From Longibacter salinarum (GTDB taxonomy: Bacteria > Bacteroidota > Rhodothermia > Rhodothermales > Salinibacteraceae): 64,000 bases of DNA. Positions 2,540 to 10,445 of this stretch are shown here, piece by piece. A model generated the notes under the pieces. It saw nothing but the letters and a program-made list of their open reading frames with translations. It was not told the DNA's origin and did not search any database. Both the position numbers and the translations under genes were made by a program. The stretch lies in the NCBI RefSeq assembly GCF_002554795.1, contig NZ_PDEQ01000001.1:620001-684000 (forward strand). The letters are read 5' to 3'. Each line of letters starts with the position of its first letter. The stretch's first letter is position 1.

Positions 2540-3232
2540 ATGGCGCCGCTGCCGCAAGTCGACACGACCGCTGCCGATACAACGCAAGCTGCCGGAGCGG
2601 GCGCACAGTCCCTCCTTGACATCTTATTTCAAGGCGGATGGGTGATGATTCCCATTCTCCTGCTCTCGCTCGTAGCAATTTATCTGCTCATTGAGCGCCT
2701 GATCACGATCCGTAATGCGCAATCGGACCCAGAGGTCGTTACCGACCGGATACGTCAATACGTCCGCTCAGGCGATGTCGACGGAGCGATATCTTACTGC
2801 ATGCAGAAGGACGTCCCCATCACGCGCATTCTGAAGCAGGGGCTTGAGCGCCTCGGGCGCCCCATTTCGGAGATCCAGGATGCCGTTCAGGCTGCAGGAA
2901 AGTACGAAACGTTTGAGCTGGAGAAAAAGACGAACATGCTCGCAAGCATCGCGGGAGTCGCTCCTATGCTTGGATTCTTCGGAACGGTCCTCGGTATGAT
3001 TCGCGCGTTTCAGGAGATTCAGAACCTGCAGGGCAATGTTAATCCCAGCGTTCTCGCCGGCGGGATCTGGGAGGCTCTCGTTACAACAGCGACCGGGCTC
3101 CTCGTCGGTATTCTCGCTTTACTTGCGTACAACTTCCTCCTTACACGGATTCGCAGGCTGACAAACGACATGGAGCGCTCGGCGACCGACTTTATCGACC
3201 TGCTTCAAGAGCCCGTACCTCCACAGTCGTAG
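2540..3232 (+). CDS. exbB: MotA/TolQ/ExbB proton channel family protein
   Basis: This 230-residue inner-membrane protein has three hydrophobic segments, at about residues 32-52, 133-155 and 173-200. The last two carry the family core: ...SIAGVAPMLGFFGTVLGM... and ...GGIWEALVTTATGLLVGI.... ExbB/TolQ proteins form a pentameric proton channel with an ExbD/TolR dimer and drive TonB- or TolA-type energy transfer to the outer membrane. The exbD homologue follows 63 bases downstream. ExbB and TolQ cannot be told apart from this sequence alone, and no tonB or tolA is visible nearby. It lies 128 bases after the HU-SPOR gene, which suggests one operon. Confidence 0.85.
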   Translation: MAPLPQVDTTAADTTQAAGAGAQSLLDILFQGGWVMIPILLLSLVAIYLLIERLITIRNAQSDPEVVTDRIRQYVRSGDVDGAISYCMQKDVPITRILKQGLERLGRPISEIQDAVQAAGKYETFELEKKTNMLASIAGVAPMLGFFGTVLGMIRAFQEIQNLQGNVNPSVLAGGIWEALVTTATGLLVGILALLAYNFLLTRIRRLTNDMERSATDFIDLLQEPVPPQS

Positions 3233-3295
3233 GTACGCCGTCTGTCGTTGCCGCATGATATCCGCGCCCCTGTCTTCGCTTTGCCCCTCCTGCCC

Positions 3296-3697
3296 ATGCC
3301 ACTCGACTTCTCCCCGTCGCGTGAGCCGCTGTCGACGTTCAGCCTTGCCGGCATGACCGACATCGTGCTTCTGCTCCTGATCTTTTTTCTTTTGACCTCG
3401 AACTTTATCCCACAAATGGGAATCCGGGTCACACTTCCCCAGGTGGAGTCATCAGCTCCGGTAGAGCGTGATTACGTGACCGTGGTTCTCACCGATGAAG
3501 GGACGTATTACGTTAACGGTCAACGCGTCTCAGAGAGCCGGCTTGTTGCTTCCATCCGATCTGCGAAGACGACGCAATCCGCTCTCGTGCTTCGTGCGGA
3601 TCAGGGTGCTACAATCGGACAGTTCGCCACGGTTGCTTCCGCAGCTCAGGCGCTAAATCTGCGCGTGTTGATGGCAACAGAGCGTAACCGCCGCTGA
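3296..3697 (+). CDS. exbD: ExbD/TolR family biopolymer transport protein
   Basis: This 133-residue protein has a short cytoplasmic N-terminus, one membrane segment at residues ~20-37 (TDIVLLLLIFFLL) and a periplasmic domain. Asp22 at the start of the segment is the conserved proton-relay acid of the family. The periplasmic part (VVLTDEGTYYVNGQRV... LVLRADQGATIGQFATVAS) is the usual ExbD fold. I took the ATG at 3296; a TTG at 3248 would add 16 residues unlike the family. It pairs with the ExbB homologue just upstream and is followed 42 bases later by a strong hairpin terminator, so it is the last gene of the HU-SPOR-exbBD unit. Confidence 0.85.
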   Translation: MPLDFSPSREPLSTFSLAGMTDIVLLLLIFFLLTSNFIPQMGIRVTLPQVESSAPVERDYVTVVLTDEGTYYVNGQRVSESRLVASIRSAKTTQSALVLRADQGATIGQFATVASAAQALNLRVLMATERNRR

Positions 3698-4585: not shown

Positions 4586-5251
4586 TTAGCGCGAGGAATA
4601 CGAGAGGCGAGTAATCTTATCGACCAGGTTTCGCTTCTTGGCCTCAAAGCCCTCTCGGACGGTCCGATCGCCGATCTCGACGATACGCGCATCGCGTTCA
4701 CGAACGATCTTCGCGAATGCGATCTGATCACCAAATGGCTTGAGCGCAGCCTCATTGGTCACGAGCGTTGTGCCCTTGTTGCGGAGCACGTCGTCGACCC
4801 AAGAGTCTTTGGCGTTGAGGTACATAATCGGAATATCTTCCTCACCGGTGCCCGGCGGGCGATAGATAAAGAAGAGTTCCGTGATACGCTCCTCGAAGCC
4901 GTCGCGGTTCACCTCGAAGCGGTAGTCAATAAAGACATAGTTCGCACTCGAGAGACCAATACCCTCCTGGTTAAGAAGCTGATCTTCGAGCTGGCTAACC
5001 AGGGTACGGTTCGGGTCGTCAGGGGCACGTTTAATTTGAAGGCTGTCGCTGCGGTCGATCACATTAATCAGTGTGTCGAGCAGGGCCCGAGTTGGCGTCT
5101 CGGTCTGCACCGGAGCGATGACCTGCGTCGTCTGGAGCCAGCGCTGGGCGTTAGCTTCGCGCGGGCCGATGAAAAGAAGGAACGCGAGGGCGAGAGTGGC
5201 AATCCCGCCGACACGTTTTAATGCGTGGAGTGGATGGATGGTACGCATCAT
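4586..5251 (-). CDS. gldN: GldN/PorN-type gliding motility / T9SS protein (short form)
   Basis: This 221-residue protein begins with a signal peptide (hydrophobic segment ~17-28, probable cleavage near ANAQ at 33-36), so it acts in the periplasm. GldN/PorN binds GldK/PorK and forms part of the ring complex of type IX secretion. Matching features are the RALLDTLINVIDRSDSLQIK start of the mature domain and the ELFFIYRPPG... LKPFGDQIAFAKIVRERD region. GldN of Flavobacterium is nearer 300 residues, so this one is short. Its position as last gene after gldK, gldL and gldM supports the name more than the sequence alone does. A terminator follows. Confidence 0.75.
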   Translation of the reverse strand: MMRTIHPLHALKRVGGIATLALAFLLFIGPREANAQRWLQTTQVIAPVQTETPTRALLDTLINVIDRSDSLQIKRAPDDPNRTLVSQLEDQLLNQEGIGLSSANYVFIDYRFEVNRDGFEERITELFFIYRPPGTGEEDIPIMYLNAKDSWVDDVLRNKGTTLVTNEAALKPFGDQIAFAKIVRERDARIVEIGDRTVREGFEAKKRNLVDKITRLSYSSR

Positions 5252-5297: not shown

Positions 5298-6323
5298 CTA
5301 CGAGAGCACGAAACTGAAGGAACGGCTGGCCTCGCTTAGCTGAACAGGGATGGCCTGTCCGGCGTGGTTGATACGAACGACACCCTGCAATTGGACCAGA
5401 ATTTGGTCCTTCGGGCGTGCGTCGCGCAACTCACGCACGAGTCGCAGTTCGCTGCCGTTCGAGAGATTGAACGTGCCAACCTCTTGGCTCGCAGCAAGTC
5501 CCTTCCTGATAGAGACGCGGGCACGACGGATTTGGTAACGGGCATCCTGCGGGTAGCTGGACGCATACTCACGGTCGGGCTCGATTTCAAAGTCGAGCAC
5601 GGGACGTGCCTTCGAAAAGGCGTCGCCGCTGGTGAGTTGTTTGCCCGTGGCATCGAGAACCTTGATCTCCGGTCGAGGCGGATCGATAACAGCAAACTCT
5701 TTCGATCCCAAGAAGACATCATCTTCTTCTTCGCTGGCCAAGAAGGCCCGGACAGACACAGACTGCCCAGACGGGCTCAGGCGTAGCTGACGCCCTTCCT
5801 GCATGTTTCCGTTGGCCTCCAGCTTCAGCGGCTGGTTCTCAAGACCCGGAACGTCGATCCGGATCTGGTTCAGCGTCTGCCGATAGAGCGATTGCGTCGC
5901 CACACTCGTGGCAACGAGCTCGGGTCGGCGCACGGTGAAGGAACCACGGACCTCTGTTTCGGCCGTCTCCTTGTTCACCTGCTGATATTCCATCACCGCG
6001 GTGTAATTGATCTTCTTTACGTCCTCATCTTCCGCCAGGAGGCTACCTGTCGGCATTTGAAGAGACGTGTCGCCCATGACGGTCATCCGCCCATCGGGCG
6101 CCTTCAATGTCACTTTGCTTGCAGCGGTAAGGTATGCTCGAGCTGTGTAGGGCTGTCCGAGAACGATGTTCTCATCCCCTACGACGACCGGCTTCACTTC
6201 CTTGACCGCGAAGGTCGTCTCATCCAGATCAAACGTACTGAAAGAGTACAGGAGGATCGGCAGGTACAGCGCCAGCATCACCTGGTACCGCAGCTGTTTA
6301 ATATCCGAATTTTCTCCAGCCAT
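5298..6323 (-). CDS. gldM: GldM/PorM-type T9SS motor protein (short form)
   Basis: The 341-residue protein has one N-terminal membrane segment (~13-29, VMLALYLPILLYSF) and a large beta-rich periplasmic part. GldM and GldL form the proton-driven motor of the T9SS, with the GldM shaft reaching to the GldK/N ring. Canonical GldM is ~510-520 residues with four periplasmic domains (D1-D4), so roughly one to two domains appear to be missing. It lies 3 bases from gldL and 46 bases from gldN in the same orientation. The assignment relies on topology, order and partial similarity of the beta domains (VGDENIVLGQPYTARAYL). Confidence 0.75.
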   Translation of the reverse strand: MAGENSDIKQLRYQVMLALYLPILLYSFSTFDLDETTFAVKEVKPVVVGDENIVLGQPYTARAYLTAASKVTLKAPDGRMTVMGDTSLQMPTGSLLAEDEDVKKINYTAVMEYQQVNKETAETEVRGSFTVRRPELVATSVATQSLYRQTLNQIRIDVPGLENQPLKLEANGNMQEGRQLRLSPSGQSVSVRAFLASEEEDDVFLGSKEFAVIDPPRPEIKVLDATGKQLTSGDAFSKARPVLDFEIEPDREYASSYPQDARYQIRRARVSIRKGLAASQEVGTFNLSNGSELRLVRELRDARPKDQILVQLQGVVRINHAGQAIPVQLSEASRSFSFVLS

Positions 6324-6326
6324 AGG

Positions 6327-6980
6327 TTACTTCACCGTTTGCTTATTTTCGGAGACGCCGTTTGCGGCTTGCGGATTATTGAACTGGCGGAAGCGGCTCA
6401 GCATGGTGTCCAGATCATTGCGCATCTCCTGAACAGCAGATCCCGCATTCTCCATTTCACCGCCAAGGGCGTTCATCCCGCGACCGAGGCGCTCTGCGTC
6501 CTCTGCGAGATCACCACTGGCCACCTCGCTCAACTTCGAGCGCATGTCTTGCACGGCGACGCGTGCACGCTTCATCTCCCCGACCATGTCGTGGATTTCA
6601 CCGCCGAACTGCTTGATCTCTTTTCCAAGCGCGCCCATCATGACGTTCAGGTCGTCATTGACCTTCTTCTCAATCATCTTCCGGGCCGAGGCGGTGACGG
6701 GCGTACCGGGATCCGATGAACCAGCAGCTGCCATTTGTTGTGCTTCTTCATCGGAGGACGGCGTGTCCATGATGAAGGCTTGTCCCAGTTCGAGGCAGCC
6801 CATGACAACGAAGGCAGCGGCCTCACCAATGAAGCCGAGCTGCATAAACAGCTCCCAGTTCGGATATTTTAGAATTTTAAAGAACACCCCGAGGATGGCG
6901 AGGGCACCAAAGATTCCGATAAAGAATCCGAGGACCTTCGTAATCCTCGCAAGGATGGCTTCTGATCGTTTTGTGGCCAT
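6327..6980 (-). CDS. gldL: GldL/PorL-type T9SS motor protein
   Basis: This 217-residue protein has two membrane helices, at about residues 16-37 and 46-66, followed by a long cytoplasmic helical tail with many Glu, Lys and Met (coiled coil likely at 95-190). GldL uses the proton motive force with GldM to power type IX secretion and gliding. A membrane-embedded acid, Glu53 in GFIGEAAAF, and Lys35 in the first hairpin match charged residues known to matter in GldL. Only 3 bases separate it from gldM, which suggests translational coupling. It sits between gldK and gldM as in classical gldKLMN clusters. Confidence 0.85.
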   Translation of the reverse strand: MATKRSEAILARITKVLGFFIGIFGALAILGVFFKILKYPNWELFMQLGFIGEAAAFVVMGCLELGQAFIMDTPSSDEEAQQMAAAGSSDPGTPVTASARKMIEKKVNDDLNVMMGALGKEIKQFGGEIHDMVGEMKRARVAVQDMRSKLSEVASGDLAEDAERLGRGMNALGGEMENAGSAVQEMRNDLDTMLSRFRQFNNPQAANGVSENKQTVK

Positions 6981-7111: not shown

Positions 7112-8932
7112 CTAGAACAACCCGCCACCTTGCTGTGGCTGTTGCTGTGGAGGTTGCTGCGGCTGCTGGGCCGGCGGTTGCTGCTGACCCTGCGGAGGCT
7201 GACCTTGCTGCGGAGGCTGACCCTGAGCCGGCGGTTGCTGGCCCTGTGGTGGCTGCCCCTGCTGCGGTACACCCTGTTGACTGTTGGGAGAAGGAATGCG
7301 TTGCGCGCCACCGTTGGATTGGTCGCGGCTCACACCTTCGATCTGGCTGATATCTGCTGCACATCGTACGCCAATTCGAGGGGAGGCATCTGCCTTATCC
7401 TGGAAATCACGGAAGCCAACACCGATCCGAAATGCGTTGGAACTCCATGATCCGCCTCGAATGACGTGGCGTGTTTCAGTCTCGTCGCGGTGAACTGGAT
7501 CGAGGTCAGAAAGCTGACTGTATGTAGGCGTGTATGCGTCCTCAACCCACTCTGCTACGTTTCCTGACATGTCGTGGAGCCCCCAACGACTCGGCGGATA
7601 GGATCCAACGGGGGCCGTAAAGGCATAACCGTCGGCGGCCTGACCCTGTCGACCCGGGTTGAAGTTCGCGAGCCAACGGCCGAACCCATCCTGGGGTGAG
7701 AAACCAGCCCACGGGTAAATTCCACCCACGCGACCACTCCGAGCGGCGTATTCCCACTCGGCCTCGGTCGGCAAACGTTTACCGGCGTACTGACAGTATT
7801 CGCTAGCTTCCTCCCATGTGATGGCTACGACCGGGTAGTCGTCGTACGTCGAGCCGTAGAAGTAGGTCGACCAGTCGGCCCGGCTTGCGCTCTCACGCCA
7901 GGCGGACGAGTCGGGGAGTAGGTCGTCGCGACGATTAGACTGATTGAGGAATTCGCGGTACTCCGCGTTCGTAACCTCGAATCGGTCCATGTAAAAGGAA
8001 CTCACGGTGATGCGACGACGACCCGCGTTTTGTATGTCAAATGGATCTTCGTCGGTAAGTCCCATAATGAAGGTTCCGTCGGGAAGACGCACCATGTCAC
8101 CGTCCTCGGAAACAACGACCTCTCCGGAGATCGGTGGTACGCCGGGATCGTCGAACGCAGCGTCGTTCGGGCCCGAAATCATCAACGGCTCATTGGTCTT
8201 GATGGAATCCCGGTCCGGACGCTCGAAAGCGGAGGGCGGACCTCCCTGCGTAAGTTGCGTCGGATCCTGGAACGGACTCTGAACGGCCCCACCCCGCTCA
8301 CCGAAGTTCTGCTGACGTGCGAAGCCTTCCGACTCACCCGGTTCGCGCGGCTCTCGCGGCTCTCGCTCTCTACGATCTTTCTGATCTACCGGCGTTGCCC
8401 CGGGCTCGGCGCGGGCGATCCGTTCGAGTTTATAGACAAGGCCGAGCGACGGCATTAGACCGGCAACGATCTCCGGGGTGTCCGTTTGCGAAATATCCTC
8501 ACGCTCGACGTATCCCCAACGACCAGACACCTCGAGGGAGATTGCGATATTGCGCTGGACACCATATTCCAATCCCACACCAACGGGAATCATCCCTTTC
8601 TCATCGTTAACGCCACGAGAGAAATATCGTCCGTATCCGGCAAAAAGATACGGGTTAATGTTGGCGTCAACCCCGAGTGGATGCAATTGAAGAATCGCTT
8701 CGAGGGACAAAAGGTCTTGGTACGTGAGTCCAGCGCGGAGACGCCCGTAGTTGGCGTAGTCAAACTGGACACCACCACCGACTGCCGGAGTAGTACCACT
8801 AATGGAGCTCAGCTCCGTGTCTTCCGCAACCAGCGCTCCCCCCTGTAGGAAAAGGCGCTGCGCATTGGCTTCCGACACGCTGCCCACGAGAATGAACAGC
8901 AGGGTAGCGGCGATGAATCGTTTCATCGACAT
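7112..8932 (-). CDS. gldK: GldK-type protein: outer-membrane barrel fused to an FGE-sulfatase-like domain
   Basis: The 606-residue protein has a signal peptide (1-24, ending EANAQ) with no lipobox cysteine. Residues 28-172 are strand-rich with barrel-like repeats (NPYLFAGYGRYFS, GVGLEYGV, ISLEVSGRWGYV). A charged linker follows (~175-270). Residues ~278-527 are an SUMF1/FGE-sulfatase-like domain (MVRLPDGTFIMG, FEVTNAEYREFL, KRLPTEAEWEYAAR, GLHDMSGNVAEWVED, VIRGGSWSSN, IGVRC). Residues 548-606 are a Gln/Pro-rich tail. The catalytic cysteines of true formylglycine enzymes are absent after RGGSW, as in GldK/GldJ, so a structural role in the T9SS ring is expected. Known GldK is a lipoprotein of ~450 residues without a barrel. 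gldL follows 131 bases downstream. Confidence 0.8.
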   Translation of the reverse strand: MSMKRFIAATLLFILVGSVSEANAQRLFLQGGALVAEDTELSSISGTTPAVGGGVQFDYANYGRLRAGLTYQDLLSLEAILQLHPLGVDANINPYLFAGYGRYFSRGVNDEKGMIPVGVGLEYGVQRNIAISLEVSGRWGYVEREDISQTDTPEIVAGLMPSLGLVYKLERIARAEPGATPVDQKDRREREPREPREPGESEGFARQQNFGERGGAVQSPFQDPTQLTQGGPPSAFERPDRDSIKTNEPLMISGPNDAAFDDPGVPPISGEVVVSEDGDMVRLPDGTFIMGLTDEDPFDIQNAGRRRITVSSFYMDRFEVTNAEYREFLNQSNRRDDLLPDSSAWRESASRADWSTYFYGSTYDDYPVVAITWEEASEYCQYAGKRLPTEAEWEYAARSGRVGGIYPWAGFSPQDGFGRWLANFNPGRQGQAADGYAFTAPVGSYPPSRWGLHDMSGNVAEWVEDAYTPTYSQLSDLDPVHRDETETRHVIRGGSWSSNAFRIGVGFRDFQDKADASPRIGVRCAADISQIEGVSRDQSNGGAQRIPSPNSQQGVPQQGQPPQGQQPPAQGQPPQQGQPPQGQQQPPAQQPQQPPQQQPQQGGGLF

Positions 8933-9025: not shown

Positions 9026-9763
9026 TTAGTACTCGTTGAGGTTAAACCGATAACCGACGGTAATAAAGCCGAGCAGATCCACTGGACCCGCCCCCGTGAT
9101 GCCAGAGTGACCATCGAGGAAGTCCGTCGTTGAAACCCGGGCACCGATCCGGACCTTGTCCGAGACCAGGACGCCACCAACGATCGACCCTACAACACGC
9201 GTTCCAAGTTCTTTGAACTCGGAGTCGGGACTCGGGTCTTGTGCAGGAAAACCGGTGTACGTCGGGCTGATCACAAACATGGGTCCCCCGCCGAGAAAAA
9301 CACGGAGCAGGTCCTGCTTGATGTACGGCAGTTCGTAGCTACCGGTAAACTCGAGCGAGATCAGATTATTGGTAAACTCCAAGTTTCGAATATTCTGCCC
9401 GGAGATTCGATCATATGACACCTGTGCTCCGATACCGAACTGTTCGTACTCGCCAAACCGCTTGTCAACCCCAACAACCACGTCCAGTTGTGCACCACCA
9501 AGATGCTTCAGGATATTGTCGTTCGGATTAGAGTCAAGATCACCTTGATACGTATTGATCCCGACCCCAACGTAGACGCCACTAATAAACGGCTGGTTGA
9601 CAGGCTGAGGCGGTGCCTCTTGTTCCTGACTGTTCTGCCCGTAGGCAGGACGGCCGCGATTCCCTCTCGGATTAACTTGTGCATACACCTCCGAGAGAAG
9701 ACTCGTCCCTAGCAAAAATACCAGGCACAGGGTCCCTACGCGAGTCAGCGTGGAGTCAAACAT
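9026..9763 (-). CDS. Outer-membrane beta-barrel protein (DUF6089-like), first gene of gld operon
   Basis: This 245-residue protein starts with a signal peptide (MFDSTLTRVG... SEVYAQ, ~28 residues), has a Gln/Pro/Asn-rich stretch to ~55, then alternating beta strands with GVYVGVGINTYQGDLDSN and a final strand GFITVGYRFNLNEY. This looks like the small outer-membrane barrels of the DUF6089/OmpA-like type. It is not a recognisable PorP/SprF, although porP precedes porK in Porphyromonas. I chose the ATG at 9763 because it begins the signal peptide; the frame stays open to 9886. Its position upstream of gldK suggests an outer-membrane partner of the T9SS ring, which is inference. Confidence 0.65.
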   Translation of the reverse strand: MFDSTLTRVGTLCLVFLLGTSLLSEVYAQVNPRGNRGRPAYGQNSQEQEAPPQPVNQPFISGVYVGVGINTYQGDLDSNPNDNILKHLGGAQLDVVVGVDKRFGEYEQFGIGAQVSYDRISGQNIRNLEFTNNLISLEFTGSYELPYIKQDLLRVFLGGGPMFVISPTYTGFPAQDPSPDSEFKELGTRVVGSIVGGVLVSDKVRIGARVSTTDFLDGHSGITGAGPVDLLGFITVGYRFNLNEY

Positions 9764-10445
9764 GAATGTCGTCGGTAATGGGTGACTAACGGGTGCGCGA
9801 CCGGCGCCCGACTCATCTATCATCGGGAACGCGCCGGGGTGAACCGAACGGTAAACTAAACTACGTCGCAGGTCAGCAAGTGACAAATGTGGATCTCATG
9901 CGTTTGATTAATTTACCCTCCCTACCACGAAATTGCGACCTTCTTGCACATCGGAGGGCAACTACAGCGGCACTATAAATAATCTCTTGGCTGAGCGCGG
10001 TCGACGGTACAGGAGCAACGTCGGCGTTTGAACAAAGAATCTCAAGCAGAAGATTAAAATGGAGGACACGCACGACGAAGATGAACACAACAATCGTGCA
10101 AAAAGGTTACACCCAAAAAAGATGCCGCGTAACCATCTCCCACACAATCCGTCCCCTCTATTCACATAAGACCTTCTTATGGACGTGAGCAACCGCTGCT
10201 CATTTGTGTGACGGCAGCGAATATTGGCCTGCAAATGTACTAAACCGTCTCATAGCAGTCACGTCATTGTTTACCTTTCATACGATTCGCAAAATGTATC
10301 AAGTTCCATCTCCATATAGCTGCTAGCGCACGTGCGCGCCGGAATGCATTGGATGTCGCTGATGACGATGTTCTTTCTGGACCAGCCATCCATGTCTTTT
10401 CCTCATTCAACGTGGGCAGACGTGCAGTCCACACTGACCCATCGG
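9764..10445. other. Intergenic region upstream of the gld operon, no gene seen
   Basis: About 680 bases lie between the operon's first gene and the end of the YifB gene, both on the minus strand. Frames here are short and lack domains; a minus-strand frame at 9962-10234 is Cys/Arg/Ser-rich and unlike a real protein. The gld operon promoter should lie here but I could not fix it with confidence. Confidence 0.5.

Follow-up and report, generated by a model that had tools for sequence, protein, structure and literature searches.

A barrel-GldK fusion at the head of the gldKLMN operon suggests a T9SS ring protein with an outer-membrane anchor in its own chain

It is not yet settled how the T9SS motor transmits force to the outer membrane. 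According to a proposal published in late 2025, a single cysteine of GldK forms the disulfide bonds by which outer-membrane barrels are attached to the ring or track (PMC12635249). PorG, predicted to be 8-stranded, and the adhesin carrier SprF are described there as forming a disulfide from a C-tail cysteine to GldK Cys343 or PorK Cys356; the target cysteine lies in an RGCF loop that faces the outer membrane and is called "completely invariant" in GldK/PorK by the authors, and in Flavobacterium, GldK is present in large excess over PorG (PMC12635249). Contact between PorK subunits and self-association have been assigned to InsH, a 150-residue insertion (PorK R81–P230; PMC12421860), and the helical D1 domain of GldM has been located to residues 32–232 (PMC5790014). 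The open-access literature, outside which most subscription papers lie, yielded no described barrel-GldK or PorG-PorK fusion and no GldK of Rhodothermota.

We analyzed a stretch of 64,000 nucleotides from the genome of Longibacter salinarum (hereafter the window, to which all plain coordinates refer), in which a first-pass annotation had read the gene at 7112..8932 on the minus strand as a GldK-type protein that may be held by an N-terminal barrel instead of a lipid. The gene starts with ATG, has relatives of the same layout, and encodes a fusion protein of 606 residues, the segments of which are all given here on the minus strand. A hydrophobic signal peptide (residues 1–24, 8861..8932) ends in ANA|Q25 and lacks a lipobox. 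Gln25 is kept without exception in 14 relatives, and Gln after the cleavage site is predicted by the "Q-rule" for signal peptidase I of Bacteroidota (PMC10653852). A predicted 8-stranded, PorG-like outer-membrane barrel (residues 25–172, 8417..8860) is followed by a charged linker rich in Pro, Glu, Gly, and Arg (residues 173–278, 8099..8416), then by an FGE/SME-fold ring domain (residues 279–526, 7355..8098) and a tail with 36% Gln and 21% Pro (residues 527–606, 7115..7354). The only cysteines are 380 and 524, so there is none in residues 25–278; both occupy conserved positions of the fold, and several other fusions have no cysteine at all. The layout given by the first-pass annotation, from a signal peptide without lipobox through a strand-rich segment, a charged linker, and an FGE-sulfatase-like domain without the catalytic cysteine to a Gln/Pro tail, thus holds throughout, and gldJ is absent from the 64,000-nt window, as it had noted.

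The barrel-like character of the N-terminal segment, about 148 residues long, emerged from the alignment of relatives, in which the column-averaged hydrophobicity of residues 25–172 alternates along eight strand-like stretches. The alternation score was 34.8 versus 22.6 ± 2.3 (SD) for shuffled sequences; none of the 500 shuffles reached the observed value, and two stretches of the FGE domain taken as controls scored like their own shuffles. Pfam barrel models merely touch the segment (E 0.67), and the sister protein L051 gives a better match in the same place (PF13505, 3.8e-5). Predicting residues 25–178 with AlphaFold2 from the single sequence gave a pLDDT of 31; adding 28 homologues of GldK and GldJ for the full-length protein gave a good prediction for the FGE domain's first half and values mostly below 50 for barrel and linker. 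From these sequence patterns, the segment is predicted to form a closed barrel sitting in the outer membrane.

PorG (NF052316) was the only barrel family in NCBIfam to touch the segment, with 14.5 bits (E 0.023) and thus below its cut-off of 130 bits. In hhalign comparisons, which were built on few sequences and covered 96 columns, a profile of window-type barrels (14–17 sequences) matched seven PorGs with probabilities of 96–97 and scores of 57–66, reversed alignments reaching at most 18. The seven PorGs taken singly scored 34–59.5 against the window-type profile; for 29 further barrels of the outer membrane (PF13568), taken from the same genomes, the maximum was 27.8. L202, a PorG-like barrel with an OmpA-type C-terminus, scored 56, as high as the PorGs themselves; the match therefore indicates a PorG-like subfamily and not orthology, and we call the domain PorG-like rather than PorG. 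Other sequence types, not recognizably PorG, make up the barrels of G021–G023 (genus g8) and of a second order, and the profile comparison leaves PorG identity unsupported for them; in all, three unlike barrel types were found joined to the same ring domain. A joint PorG/barrel profile, which does recover the free PorGs of Bacteroidota, matched only the fusion in this genome (G000), G004, and G025, and no member of PorP/SprF was found in this genome or in its closest relatives G004, G017, and G025.

In the ring domain, residues 279–525 match the FGE-sulfatase family (PF03781, 2.9e-60), and the GldK model TIGR03525 gives 6.8e-63 and 213 bits, below its cut-off of 350 bits; the two GldJ models also fall short of theirs (TIGR03530, 95.5 bits, cut-off 382.9; TIGR03524, 92.7 bits, cut-off 458.2). 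When the FGE domain was modeled, the closest solved structure was PorK of Porphyromonas gingivalis, with 36% identity and a Z of 25.1 across 251 residues. The sites of the FGE catalytic cysteines are Ser498 and Ile503, and we excluded an active formylglycine enzyme because the catalytic pair is absent. InsH is missing, residues 330 to 337 of the query spanning positions 57 to 209 of PorK.

The loop that carries the reactive cysteine, an RGC[FLM] motif in GldK/PorK, reads F-G-R419-W in the window protein, the codon of Arg419 (7676..7678, minus strand) standing at the site of GldK Cys343 and PorK Cys356. The reactive cysteine is absent from all 42 homologues in the class and present in the aligned lipoprotein GldKs of Bacteroidota, with one exception. 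As the cysteine is missing from the whole class and also from GldJ, its loss may predate the fusion or be independent of it. The exception among the lipoproteins (L097:6283-7566, genome G061) is a GldK on a long branch that lacks the "invariant" cysteine, in a genome whose only match to PorG is weak (4.5e-7); a second, independent loss of the disulfide link is possible there.

The fusion gene heads a gldK-L-M-N operon, its downstream neighbors lying on the same strand. They consist of gldL for the motor in the inner membrane (6327..6980, minus strand; PF22827 GldL_N, 4.6e-4; TIGR03513, 7e-3; synteny), a short gldM of 341 codons (5298..6323, minus strand; TIGR03517, 6.8e-14), and a gene without profile match (4586..5251, minus strand) assigned to gldN by position and conserved beside gldM in the family. 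GldM has about 340–385 residues in the class members read versus 511–528 in Bacteroidota, and that of the window aligns to TIGR03517 only from position 226; the D1 domain is therefore missing, and the periplasmic arm should be shorter. A T9SS is otherwise evident in the genome from SprA (1715 bits) and from 58 cargo C-terminal domain matches. In L046, L047, and L048 (genomes G007, G005, and G014), GldL reaches 317–369 residues versus about 220, and its C-terminal part is matched repeatedly. Elsewhere in the window, a 556-residue protein (741-2411) seems by eye to combine an N-terminus of the HU DNA-binding type with an extended acidic region, a single membrane helix, and a terminal segment resembling SPOR; genes that look like ExbB/ExbD come next (2540-3697).

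Upstream of the fusion lies a separate barrel gene of the PorG superfamily, here called G (9026..9886, minus strand; PF13505, 0.005; profile and synteny), whose product has no C-terminal cysteine. Relatives of the same family and of a second family of the order show the gene order G-K-L-M-N again, likewise with a barrel-bearing K; G was not found where K has a longer barrel (L051, L054, and L055). The product of G resembles those of the Cys-less genes that neighbor porG elsewhere in Bacteroidota (L204 and L205), which it matches with a probability of 97. It scores 76.5 against these neighbors and 47.9 against PorG, compared with 57.1 and 66.3, respectively, for the fused barrel. The fused barrel is not a copy of G, which is a gene of its own and whose profile does not match that of the fused barrel (score 21).

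Whether GldK homologues of the class carry the extra domain was a check proposed by the first-pass annotation. Searching 245 genomes and then reading the loci, we found 28 barrel-FGE fusions in 28 genomes, which excludes chance or an oddity of one genome. All 28 have a signal peptide of the AxA|Q type and no convincing lipobox, and gldL-M-N is adjacent in those loci whose surroundings were inspected. Of the 14 homologues without a barrel, 11 have a lipobox and 3 a plain signal peptide. The fusion is also present in the second order (families f17, f49, and f50), again adjoining gldL-M-N where checked, and there it is commonly paired with a separate lipoprotein of 335–430 residues. In G022, G023, and G078 (93–100% complete), the barrel form is the sole FGE-domain protein, and G004 has just one more, a distant one; in these genomes, the fusion must be the ring protein. 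The searches used found no GldK homologue or GldM in G008 and likewise in G015, G019, and G020 (genus g8, same family); G008 still has SprA and 15 T9SS cargo domains, and it may have lost its motor or have a highly divergent one.

The genome of L. salinarum encodes five FGE-domain proteins: the window protein, two close paralogues, and two distant ones. Neither close paralogue has a barrel or lies in the operon. One (L036, G000:C1:163726-164760) is a lipoprotein with the lipobox LTGC and an FGE domain 58% identical to that of the window protein; the other (L035, G000:C6:124092-125108) has a plain signal peptide and an FGE domain 66% identical. A quick FGE-domain tree, rooted with genuine FGE enzymes, unites the GldKs and GldJs of Bacteroidota in a single clade (support 98) that excludes all proteins of the class. 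The split of GldK and GldJ thus appears younger and the window protein a co-orthologue of both, strict orthology to GldK being excluded by the tree. The two paralogues nest within the barrel-bearing clade (support 95), so both have probably lost the barrel; L036 retains part of the linker (SPFQDP ... DPGVPP), the later portion of the fusion's linker (SPFQDP ... DPGVPPISG) being common to both proteins. Possibly, the pair represents a second, independent doubling analogous to that of GldK and GldJ. The first-pass annotation had regarded a separate lipoprotein GldK elsewhere in the genome as speaking against anchoring by the barrel. L036 formally is such a protein, yet the idea survives, because L036 is nested in the barrel clade and lies outside the operon and because G022, G023, and G078 have the barrel form only.

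Taken together, we consider it somewhat probable that the fusion is a ring (or track) protein of the T9SS with the outer-membrane anchor in its own chain. The N-terminal domain would be an 8-stranded barrel of the PorG-like kind that sits in the outer membrane, and from its periplasmic C-end the linker of ~105 residues would lead to the GldK/PorK-type FGE-fold domain, which would dock with GldN and be driven by the GldL–GldM motor. In Flavobacterium and Porphyromonas, the task is divided between two pieces, the lipid holding GldK/PorK and the disulfide between the GldK cysteine and the PorG C-tail transmitting force to the barrel; here, a single peptide chain would perform both jobs, the peptide bond replacing disulfide and lipid, and the cysteine is gone. 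In PorG, the disulfide is borne by the C-terminal end of the barrel, and this is also where the ring domain is attached in the fusion. On the simplest reading, the barrel has made the lipid anchor superfluous and the peptide bond does the job of the disulfide, with the barrel presumably carrying force and the FGE domains presumably forming a ring or track. The proposal of the first-pass annotation that the barrel serves as anchor is partly supported, a barrel-like N-terminus replacing the lipobox in the gldKLMN operon and being conserved across the class, and it was incomplete in missing the likeness to PorG, the absence of the reactive GldK cysteine, and the co-orthology to GldK and GldJ.

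A ring of mixed composition would provide another explanation. The barrel-GldK would then be a minority subunit that brings in the force-receiving barrel, the bulk consisting of barrel-free paralogues such as L035 and L036, comparable with the substoichiometric PorG of Flavobacterium. This genome encodes both paralogues, with FGE-domain identities of 66 and 58%, the operon of G003 includes a tandem copy without a barrel, the families f17, f49, and f50 commonly pair the fusion with a lipoprotein, and the known excess of GldK over PorG (PMC12635249) fits such a design. The paralogues of this genome lie outside the operon, however, and the ring must be all-barrel in G022, G023, and G078, which have no second FGE protein, and in G004, where it is distant; overall, we think a mixed ring unlikely but worth serious consideration. 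The barrel could also be an anchor only, substituting for the lipid and leaving the work of PorG to the product of G or to another barrel. That G, a PorG-superfamily barrel, adjoins the short-barrel fusions means that it could be the working PorG, which casts doubt on the preferred reading, and three unlike barrel types on the same ring domain are expected if any barrel serves as an anchor. Yet G is closer to the Cys-less neighbors of porG (76.5 vs. 47.9) and the fused barrel closer to PorG (66.3 vs. 57.1), and because the FGE domain offers no free cysteine, the known type of disulfide link to G is impossible; a role as mere anchor seems to us about as unlikely as the mixed ring.

Much less probable is a reading of the N-terminal segment as a beta domain of the periplasm or as a remnant without function. 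Its short length of 148 residues, the marginal contact with Pfam barrel models (0.67), and the failure of AlphaFold2 to yield a barrel, either from the single sequence or with GldK/GldJ homologues only, would agree with this, but the eight-strand alternation far above shuffles, the PorG profile match, and the PF13505 match of L051 (3.8e-5) argue for a membrane barrel. An assembly or frameshift artefact fusing two adjacent genes might be suspected from the barrel gene directly upstream; with the same open frame in 28 genomes and the upstream gene different and still present, it is refuted by conservation and retains a practically negligible chance.

We thus describe a conserved and, within the open-access literature searched, new variant of the T9SS ring protein. 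On a more far-reaching interpretation, in members that have only the fusion every ring subunit would bear its own barrel, giving an integral outer-membrane ring of some thirty barrels in place of a lipid-tethered sliding track; the disulfide clamp and the peptide fusion would be alternative answers to the same requirement, a covalent connection able to bear load between the motor-driven ring and an outer-membrane barrel. In a 33-mer ring of 380–540 Å, each subunit would have 36–51 Å, enough to accommodate an 8-stranded barrel. We give this wider picture slightly less than an even chance. The class is an exception to the invariance of the cysteine, yet it would lend independent support to covalent coupling of barrel and ring, and it looks like evolution's own test of how the T9SS is fixed to the outer membrane. 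The fusion fixes ring subunit and barrel at 1:1, a constraint relevant to whether the ring moves at all and, if so, in what manner. This form of the ring protein also stands outside the GldK/GldJ pair, lacks the insertion to which assembly of the PorK ring is attributed, and is accompanied by a GldM lacking D1.

Among known systems, the SprF/PorP family (TIGR03519), of which no member was found here, offers a parallel in gliders, where an outer-membrane barrel is disulfide-tied to the same GldK cysteine. GldJ (TIGR03524/TIGR03530) shares the FGE fold and the absence of both the reactive cysteine and the large InsH; it differs in being a lipoprotein with insertions of its own, and the window protein, with 95 bits for GldJ vs. 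213 for GldK, falls outside both. With GldK/PorK (TIGR03525), the fusion has in common the FGE/SME fold without catalytic cysteines, the place in the gldK-L-M-N operon, and export to the periplasm, whereas it lacks a lipobox and InsH, adds an N-terminal barrel and a linker, has Arg419 for the reactive cysteine, scores under the family cut-off, and falls outside the clade of GldK and GldJ. PorG (NF052316) shares with the fused domain the predicted 8-stranded barrel, the profile match above its controls, and a periplasmic C-end covalently tied to the ring protein. The fused barrel scores below the family cut-off, has shorter loops, and, with no cysteine in residues 25–278, lacks the C-tail cysteine or cysteines of PorG; the tie is made through a cysteine of the C-tail there and through a peptide bond here.
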